A stretch of DNA of 54,156 bases, taken from an uncultured Ignavibacterium sp. Its GTDB lineage: Bacteria; Bacteroidota; Ignavibacteria; Ignavibacteriales; Ignavibacteriaceae. The stretch spans positions 1-54,156 of the forward strand of contig CAKZLD010000219.1 in NCBI GenBank assembly GCA_937125135.1, read 5' to 3'. The notes below the pieces were generated by a model. The model worked only from the letters and a program-made list of their open reading frames with translations, did no database searches and had not been told where the DNA came from. Positions 1-2,817 of this stretch are shown piece by piece; within the stretch, counting starts at the first letter, position 1, and each line of letters opens with the position of its first letter. Position numbers and translations under genes: made by a program.

Positions 1-24
1 GAATTTCACGAATTAACACTAATT

Positions 25-160
25 AAAACCCAATCCCCAATATCCAATGAACAATTAACAATGTACAATGTATAATGAACAATTAAAAATTTCAAATGAC
101 TAATGACTAATGGCCAATGACCAACCCCCAACCACCAACCCCCAACCCCAAATTCCCCCA
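25..160. repeat. Degenerate heptanucleotide-phased repeat (AAT/AAC every 7 nt)
   Basis: AAT or AAC begins at 32, 39, 46, 53, 60, 67, 74, 81, 88, 95, 102, 109, 116, 123, 130, 137, 144 and 151: 18 consecutive units in strict 7-nt phase; the other unit positions vary. Confidence 0.9.
125..159 (-). other. Potential G-quadruplex motif on the minus strand
   Basis: C-runs at 125-129, 139-143, 146-149 and 155-159 give four G-runs of 4 or more with loops of 5, 2 and 9 nt on the minus strand. Confidence 0.65.
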
Positions 161-254: not shown

Positions 255-473
255 ATGATGATGCAAATATTTTTTCAATCATGGCTGCCTTTCATTTATT
301 TATATGGAGTCGGCGGAATATTTTTCTTTAGTGGAATGTATATTGTAATTAAAAGCGGAGCATTGAACTTGAAGAAAAGAAGACATCGCTTCTGGTTGAA
401 AATTTTATTAGGCGGCTTTTTCTTTTTTATGTTTATGCACGCTTTTCTAATAATAGCAGCACTATATCTTTGA
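255..473 (+). CDS. Small two-TM membrane protein (72 aa), copy 1
   Basis: ORF; WLPFIYLYGVGGIFFFSG...AALYL closely resembles the next ORF; upstream of an SSS symporter. Confidence 0.75.
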   Translation: MMMQIFFQSWLPFIYLYGVGGIFFFSGMYIVIKSGALNLKKRRHRFWLKILLGGFFFFMFMHAFLIIAALYL

Positions 474-720: not shown

Positions 721-2817
721 ATGGAATCACATCACAGCTTAGGTACTTCAAGTGATTGGATTGTAATGGCAGTTTACTTCATTGCAATTTTAGCATTTGG
801 AGCTTATTTCAGTAAATACAATAGGACAACAACAGATTTCTTTTTTGGCGGAAGAAGATTTGCCTGGTGGTTAATCGCAATGAGTATAGTTGCAACAGGT
901 GTCGGAAGTCACAGTTTTATTAAATATTCTGCAAAAGGATTCGAAGCAGGATTTTCTTCTACAATGACTTACATAAACGATTGGTTTTTCGTTCCGTTCT
1001 TTATTTTCGGTTGGCTACCAATCATAGTTTATACTAAGATAAGATCTATTCCAGAATATTTTGAAAAAAGATTTTCTCCAATTACAAGATTTTTTGCGAC
1101 ATTCTTATTATTGCTCTATATGATTGGGTATGTAGGAATAGGTTTTTTGACTATGGGGAAAGCAATACTGCCACTGCTTCCTCCCGAATTTACAATTTTC
1201 GGTTTTCATTTTAATGTAACCCTGATGGGTTTAGTTATTGTGATAGCTTTAATAATAGGGATATATATTACTTATGGTGGTCAAACAGCCGTAATATTTA
1301 CAGATTTATTACAGGGATTCATTCTGATCTTTACGGGCTTTTTAGTGTTTTTACTTGGGATAGATTATTTAGGTGGTTTCGGAGTATTCTGGAATTTATT
1401 ACCAACAGAATGGAAATTACCTTTTGCGCATTTTAACAATCCTCCCGGATTTAATTTTGTTGGAATATTCTGGCAGGATGGAGTCGCCGGCTCAGTCGGA
1501 TTTTTATTTATGAATATGGGATTAATTATGCGATTTATGGCTTGTAAAAGTGTTGATGAAAGCAGAAAAGCAGCTACTTTCAATATTCTTTTTATGCTTC
1601 CACTATCTGCAATAGTCGTAGGGAATGCTGGCTGGATTGGAAAAGCCATTTCTGTAGCTAATCCATCTGTCGTTCCACCTGATACAAATCCTGATGCAAT
1701 TTTTGTGGTTGTGGCAAACATAATTTCTCATCCCGGTGTTTTCGGTTTTATAATGGCAGCTTTAACCGCTGCACTTATGTCAACAGTGGATACTTTACTT
1801 AATGCAACCGCTGCAGTTTATATAAATGATATTCACAGACCAGTAAAAAAATGGCTGACCAAAAAGATTCAATCGTGGAAAGAAGAAGATAAAGAAGAAT
1901 TGTTTTCAGCAAGAATAGCAACTGCGATATTCACATTTCTTGGAGTACTAACTGTAATTCCATTTAGTAAATTTCCAACTGTATATGAAGCTCACGGTTA
2001 TTTTCATTCCACACTTACTCCCCCGCTTGTTGTAGCAATATTTCTCGGAGTTTTCTGGAAAAGATTCAGTAATTCTTCAGTTATCGGAACTCTTGTCGGA
2101 GGAGTCGCATTGATGATATTAGGAATGTATTATCCGCGACCATTGATTGAATTTTTTGATCACGGAACTGCATTCGATCCTAAGCATCCATACACTTATA
2201 TAGGTGCGTTATACAATTTATTCGTTTGTGTGTTATTTGCAGTATTGACTACATTTACAATCAAACAGCAACTTAAGATTGTTGAAAAGATTAAAAATAG
2301 TCCTAATCATAGCTTGATAATGGCTTCGATGGTTGTTGCATCAATTGTGATATTTCTACTGATTGCTTTTAATTTATTGCCAATGATAGTGCTTGTAATA
2401 CTTACTTTCATTATGGTCTTCTTCGTTGTGATTGTTTCAAATTATTATATTGAATATAATGAAGAAGAAAAAACGAATGGTTTAACTGTATGGTCAATCA
2501 ACAAAGCAAAAGAATATTTCAAAGGCTCAAAGATTAACGATCGCGAAGGTGAAAAAATAAAAGTTAATTGGAAACTCAAAGAAGGTGAAGATGATACAAT
2601 TCATTTCTCAAAAAACGATATGAAGCGAATGGCTGCTGAAGTTGGTGATTTAGTATATATTTCAGATACGAGGAAATATCTTGGTGGATTAAAATCCTGT
2701 CATACAGTATATGGCGAACCGCACGATGAAGATGGAGTTGTATATATCAGTAGAGAGCACGTTGAACAGGGTCAGTTCGTTAAAGGACATAAGCTAATTG
2801 CTGAAAAAGAAATGTAA
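721..2817 (+). CDS. Sodium:solute symporter (SSS) family protein with soluble C-terminal extension
   Basis: 698 aa; many TM segments; SSS-like FFFGGRRFAWWLIAMSIVATGVGSHSF and ALMSTVDTLLNATAAVYINDI. Confidence 0.9.
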   Translation: MESHHSLGTSSDWIVMAVYFIAILAFGAYFSKYNRTTTDFFFGGRRFAWWLIAMSIVATGVGSHSFIKYSAKGFEAGFSSTMTYINDWFFVPFFIFGWLPIIVYTKIRSIPEYFEKRFSPITRFFATFLLLLYMIGYVGIGFLTMGKAILPLLPPEFTIFGFHFNVTLMGLVIVIALIIGIYITYGGQTAVIFTDLLQGFILIFTGFLVFLLGIDYLGGFGVFWNLLPTEWKLPFAHFNNPPGFNFVGIFWQDGVAGSVGFLFMNMGLIMRFMACKSVDESRKAATFNILFMLPLSAIVVGNAGWIGKAISVANPSVVPPDTNPDAIFVVVANIISHPGVFGFIMAALTAALMSTVDTLLNATAAVYINDIHRPVKKWLTKKIQSWKEEDKEELFSARIATAIFTFLGVLTVIPFSKFPTVYEAHGYFHSTLTPPLVVAIFLGVFWKRFSNSSVIGTLVGGVALMILGMYYPRPLIEFFDHGTAFDPKHPYTYIGALYNLFVCVLFAVLTTFTIKQQLKIVEKIKNSPNHSLIMASMVVASIVIFLLIAFNLLPMIVLVILTFIMVFFVVIVSNYYIEYNEEEKTNGLTVWSINKAKEYFKGSKINDREGEKIKVNWKLKEGEDDTIHFSKNDMKRMAAEVGDLVYISDTRKYLGGLKSCHTVYGEPHDEDGVVYISREHVEQGQFVKGHKLIAEKEM

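Follow-up and report, generated by a model that had tools for sequence, protein, structure and literature searches.

A degenerate heptanucleotide repeat array in an intergenic region of an uncultured Ignavibacterium, and its relation to known bacterial heptad repeats

Heptanucleotide repeats of bacterial intergenic DNA

Long simple sequence repeats (LSSR) with 7-nt units are known from prokaryotes (Mrazek et al. 2007, as cited in PMC4679880 and PMC4692102), and the SPADE survey of 2018 found that, among the intergenic tandem repeats of prokaryotes, heptamers are the most abundant (PMC6344855). The array described here lies near the left end of the window, by which we mean the whole 54,156-nt stretch of DNA analysed, which is one entire MAG contig (C219) of an uncultured Ignavibacterium (genome G000, a 2.7-Mb draft in 239 contigs). 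At least as the survey and the papers citing Mrazek et al. present them, LSSR resemble our array in their 7-nt period, intergenic location, many loci, lineage-specific abundance and lack of an assigned function (PMC6344855). In contrast to LSSR, the window array is degenerate, contains ordered unit subtypes and has composite neighbours. TRF recovers it only as short sub-arrays of 3.9-5.6 copies with 81-90% matches; other arrays of the family are cleaner.

Direct repeats of TAACTGA occur in Beggiatoaceae, Cyanobacteria and some Bacteroidetes, with mixed heptamer assemblages and contigs that end in them (MacGregor 2015, PMC4679880), and a regulatory role has been proposed for those upstream of genes in marine Beggiatoaceae (PMC4679880). 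Our arrays share with these the heptamer unit, the intergenic location, an overlapping host range, the mixed assemblages and the breaking of contigs within repeats. However, TAACTGA is absent from the window array, whose words are AATGACY, AATTAAC and AACCCCC. There is also no forward-oriented placement a few nucleotides before start codons; the array stops 97 bp short of the ORF that starts at 255, and the contexts of other arrays vary. True TAACTGA arrays were found in two genomes of the phylum (G067 and G117).

Heptamers associated with quadruplexes, GGGNATC and GGGGA(C/T)T, are described from Xanthomonas and Nostoc (Rehm 2015, PMC4692102), and heptanucleotides of Calothrix are at least cited in the same paper (PMC4692102). 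The former are G-rich 7-nt spacer units, and the C-rich end of our array has a G-run pattern like theirs on the minus strand. Unlike those repeats, the window array has a single G-rich block, and its family shows little conservation of sites between species, whereas their sites are mostly conserved.

STRR heptanucleotides are repeats of heterocystous cyanobacteria. The word AATGACY builds arrays in Nostoc, Tychonema and Microcoleus, and the kinship to cyanobacterial heptanucleotide repeats that an initial annotation of this DNA had suggested held up in a search with four exact copies of this word: among the matches listed, most came from cyanobacteria (Nostoc, Microcoleus and Tychonema) and some from Bacteroidetes genomes. 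Cyanobacterial arrays are nearer to perfect than ours and contain more words. Finally, Geobacter bemidjiensis carries co-clustered multicopy intergenic nucleotide sequences (PMC2996986). As here, several short families of direct repeats and palindromes share the same spacers, although the host group is different and the likeness is one of organisation.

We conclude that the window array belongs to this class, which is known (Mrazek; MacGregor 2015; Rehm 2015; SPADE 2018) and whose function is still unexplained, as far as these works and the citations of Mrazek et al. present it. Head-to-tail 7-nt units occur beyond chance, and many dispersed, mainly intergenic arrays are found. The initial claim that a degenerate, phase-locked form would be undescribed went too far, since mixed heptamer assemblages had already been noted in cyanobacteria and Bacteroidetes (PMC4679880), and the reported abundance of heptamers among prokaryotic intergenic tandem repeats (PMC6344855) also speaks against novelty. 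Setting the array apart from ordinary microsatellites was likewise too strong, since unit-wise duplication with point mutation gives a constant phase with substitutions. What the window array adds to the class is degeneracy, ordered subtypes and composite structure; for a degenerate, ordered and composite heptad form we found no description in the literature.

Anatomy of the window array

On the plus strand, AAT or AAC (AAY) recurs exactly every 7 nt for 18 units, the first at 32 and the last at 151, the array ending at 157. The AA dinucleotide alone keeps the same phase for 19 units from 25, so that we delimit the array as 25 to 157, with the unit consensus AA(T/C)NNNN. No other AAY run of at least six units occurs on either strand of the whole 54-kb window, and runs reached no more than five units in 200 first-order Markov shuffles of the window or in 5,000 shuffles of bases 1 to 250. 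Among all periods tested, lag 7 gave the highest self-similarity of the array (72 bits), while lags that are not multiples of 7 reached at most about 33 bits. The count of 18 units in the initial annotation was thus correct, and the shuffles, which could have produced the same spacing by chance, did not contain the pattern; together with the lag scan they rule out chance and base composition. No ORF of at least 60 aa overlaps the array, in agreement with the annotated non-coding nature, and a coding cause is ruled out.

The array opens with the C-rich units CCCAATC and CCCAATA. These precede an A-rich block (46 to 94: AATGAAC, AATTAAC, AATGTAC, AATGTAT, AATGAAC, AATTAAA, AATTTCA), a block of AATGACY-type units (95 to 122: AATGACT, AATGACT, AATGGCC, AATGACC) and a C-rich block (123 to 157: AACCCCC, AACCACC, AACCCCC, AACCCCA, AATTCCC). 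The units do drift from A-rich to C-rich, as had been noted, but the C-rich opening means that there is no simple gradient. Similarly, the phase is kept without indels in the window array but not everywhere, because other copies contain 6-nt slips, such as AATTTC in C176. The junction from the A-rich to the AATGACY block, AATTTCAAATGACTAATGAC (88 to 107, plus strand), is a signature with four loci in this genome and none in 248 other genomes of the phylum. As a tracer of the family across the phylum, the junction AATTTCAAATGACYAATGAC was rejected; it too is present at four loci here and in 0 of the 248 others, that is, in one of 249 genomes, our own.

To the left, bases 1 to 29 (plus strand) hold GAATTTCACGAATTAACACTAATTAAAA, a remnant of a roughly 10-nt-periodic element, D2 (consensus GCCACGAATTTCACGAATTA), that is truncated by the contig end; intact D2 copies adjoin heptad arrays elsewhere in the genome. 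The array lies 25-32 bases from this assembly break, and its left side is missing. To the right, a conserved spacer flank (176 to 254) precedes a small membrane ORF of 72 aa (255 to 473, plus strand) that has no Pfam or NCBIfam match and is divergent from pstS in four congeners. A similar small membrane ORF of 74 aa, also without a Pfam match, is adjacent (480 to 704), and both are conserved upstream of a sodium:solute symporter gene in the congeners examined. In the window, a gene of this symporter family occupies 721 to 2817 (plus strand) and serves here as context only.

Copies, neighbours and turnover

Dozens of further copies, for which a search had initially been proposed, were found in this genome and its relatives. 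With the window array as query, a BLAST-type search of its own genome gave 28 matches at E<=0.001 and 53 at E<=10, and 17 of 41 genomes, its own included, had matches. The statistics that follow for this genome come from 330 kb, window included, that are biased towards array-bearing contigs. A lag scan of these 330 kb gave 22 strong segments at lag 7. Lags other than multiples of 7 gave between zero and two, and shuffled sequence gave none, which leaves 7 as the sole strong non-triplet period. Seventeen of 18 arrays are clear of any ORF of at least 80 aa, and the remaining one touches an ORF by 1 base. Spacers of every orientation (divergent, convergent and codirectional) contain arrays, which lie on either strand and also beside tRNA genes. 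Several contigs terminate less than 200 bases from heptad arrays; therefore, the repeats probably break the assembly. The ends of two array-bearing contigs (C176, 26367-26443, and C143, 1-77) overlap exactly over 77 bases, which suggests that C176 joins C143 and that the assembler used a k-mer of 77. Heptad arrays were also seen directly beside or between tRNA-like sequences (G002:C2, G004:C180 and G000:C176:21604-21649).

Unsupervised phasing of 246 units recovered AA (94% and 91%), then T (84%) and then four variable positions, with an information content of only 0.24-0.28 bits at unit positions 4 and 7. This difference argues against plain neutral drift, and shared ancestry of the arrays would give it; the unequal conservation may thus reflect shared ancestry or constraint. 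A within-array Fisher test for AA conservation gave p of about 1e-5, which we do not take as proof because the units, having been copied from each other, are not independent. The order of subtypes recurs, from A-rich (AATTAAC, AATGAAC) through AATGACY to C-rich (AACCCCC), and in 19 of 24 arrays, which are partly copies of one another, the AA strand becomes richer in C along its length.

The arrays keep company with several short families: D1 (AAACCACAGATAACACAGATTA), D2, CTTTGCGTTCTTTGCGGT and the palindromes GATTCCGAAACGAGTTCGGAATGACA and GATGCTGAAACAAGTTCAGCATGACG. On the examined contigs, 21 of 25 copies of these elements are no more than 60 bp away from a heptad array. D1 has 23 copies at up to three mismatches, and its reversed control has none. 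D1 and D2 are both degenerate and roughly 10-nt-periodic, and D1-like copies also occur in the congener G005. Long composite stretches at different loci are nearly identical (91% over 147 bp between C143 and C209; 94% over 87 bp between C93 and C210), so they appear to have been copied around the genome.

Congeners provide occupied and empty versions of the same spacers. The pstS gene (TIGR02136) of our genome is on contig C93, whose sequence enters a heptad array and a palindrome before it stops. In four congeners (G002 to G005), the small ORF is divergent from pstS across a spacer of about 170-200 bp without a heptad array. The alignment of C93 to G002 stops at the start of the C93 array, and that of the window to G002 restarts at base 176. 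C93 most likely adjoins the window contig, as judged from synteny and not from an assembled join, which would place the window array in the divergent spacer between pstS and the small ORF. If so, at least about 320 bp of repeat DNA would have been gained there. At a second site (C133, site d), 322 bp with two short arrays in our genome correspond to 144 bp without an array in G002.

A third site (C174), which lies before a gene identified by inspection as deformylase-like, was compared in six congeners, our genome included. G001 and G004 lack an array there. G002 and G005 have short repeats of AAATGTT or AAATGCT, G003 carries an array of 11 units (AATGCTC, AATGACC and AATTACC), and our genome has an AATTAAC array on the reverse strand. 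Unit number at this orthologous site thus varies (0, short or 11 units), in a comparison that is between species only, and the pattern points to local, independent turnover in place. From these differences among congeners, arrays appear to be quickly gained, lost and reworded, with whole modules seemingly copied between sites as well.

In the phylum, heptad arrays are common and use many different words. Runs of at least eight AAY units at period 7 are present in 153 of 299 genomes, and a composition-matched anchor, AYA, forms heptads in 106 of 299, which weakens AAY as a universal anchor; our own genome has 48 AAY matches and 0 AYA matches. Eight consecutive AAY units at period 8 occur in 61 of 299 genomes. 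Octad arrays in which AAT recurs after each 8 nt (e.g., AATTAGATAATGTGATAATTAGATAATTGGAC) were seen at G271:C32:18970-19076, G313:C54:2422328-2422459 and G152:C82:19259-19325, and we found no description of degenerate AAT octad arrays in the literature. The arrays have no phage matches, and their only plasmid matches are to two Nostoc plasmids; we reject carriage by phages or plasmids.

One relative, G012, is a single contig of 4.21 Mb and contains several unrelated heptad vocabularies (AATTCAT/ACTTCAT, AATTACT, AACTCTC, AAGAACC and AATGTAC), with other non-triplet lags near zero. BLAST matches are absent from it between about 2.0 and 3.7 Mb. Among evenly spaced 20-kb samples, eight stretches in that zone held four arrays, compared with 40 in 12 stretches elsewhere (scored candidates). 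The array-poor zone has its centre close to the maximum of cumulative GC skew and is probably the terminus half of the chromosome.

Origin and significance of the arrays

We think, with a probability of about two in three, that the window array is a heptanucleotide array of the LSSR/STRR class that was shaped by slippage-type duplication of 7-nt units, substitution drift and dispersal of composite modules, and that it probably has no site-specific function. Replication slippage or unequal recombination would add or remove units in steps of seven bases, and point mutations would then cause the units to drift. Composite modules could occasionally be copied to other spacers by recombination, gene conversion or some further factor. 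The constant phase would follow from unit-wise duplication, and no selection for phase is needed. We suspect that selection does no more than remove copies from genes; the present comparisons gave no support for a site-specific regulatory role. The order of subtypes and the composites do require a dispersal step by some enzyme, and this counts against our account. Even so, we rank the mobile element, regulatory site and quadruplex readings below slippage and drift.

The dispersal step could be the work of a non-autonomous mobile element, a composite resembling a MITE or REP/BIME that is moved by a transposase in trans and in which the heptads are internal filler. Composite modules with 91-94% identity at different loci, lineage-specific gains at two sites and the co-clustering of palindromes and roughly 10-nt-periodic elements with heptads would all fit. 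However, palindromes adjoin only some arrays, and no common ends, terminal inverted repeats or target duplications, by which REP/BIME or MITE elements are recognized, can be defined; module ends vary from copy to copy. Moreover, arrays of other words grow in place in congeners, and the database matches include no phage and, among plasmids, Nostoc only. We consider such an element unlikely.

Alternatively, proteins or RNA-level regulation might read functional sites through the constant AAY core, by analogy with the role proposed for the TAACTGA repeats of Beggiatoaceae. The strong position-specific conservation of AAY and the probable position of the window array in the promoter region from which pstS and the small ORF diverge are consistent with this possibility. 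It is nevertheless improbable, given that arrays occupy all types of spacer, on either strand and beside tRNA genes, are absent from orthologous sites in congeners, and have a common counterpart in the phylum in the composition-matched AYA anchor. We see a slim chance that AAY arrays, with period 7 here and 8 in other Bacteroidota, do not arise by passive slippage and that a constraint on the AAY core holds the register, for example through a protein that reads the repeat or a templated synthesis machinery.

A further proposal, by analogy with the GGGNATC heptamers of Xanthomonas and Nostoc, is that a G-quadruplex or another non-B structure is the selected property. The minus strand from 125 to 159 does contain a potential quadruplex motif with four runs of 4-5 G; the 330 kb have only four motifs of this kind, of which three are inside heptad arrays. 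Yet the C-rich block alone qualifies, and most arrays here and in relatives are A-rich and unable to form a quadruplex, which makes selection for structure very improbable. Chance periodicity or a contig-end artefact can be practically dismissed even though the window array lies at the end of a contig in a MAG of 239 contigs, since shuffles gave at most five units and similar arrays lie inside contigs and in the single-contig genomes G006 and G012. Two other candidates were rejected. A structured RNA is disfavoured by the array-bearing contigs C210, C209 and C97, on which Rfam models found only one tmRNA and one tRNA, both outside arrays. A CRISPR array would have constant repeats with unique spacers of constant length, and the continuous heptads have no spacers.

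The favored period of seven in bacterial intergenic repeats is an acknowledged open question (PMC6344855). Here, related species of one genus offer the same spacers with arrays, without them and with arrays of other words, so that the birth, rewriting and copying of arrays can be traced. With the same set of species, unit duplication in place can be separated from the dispersal of composite modules.
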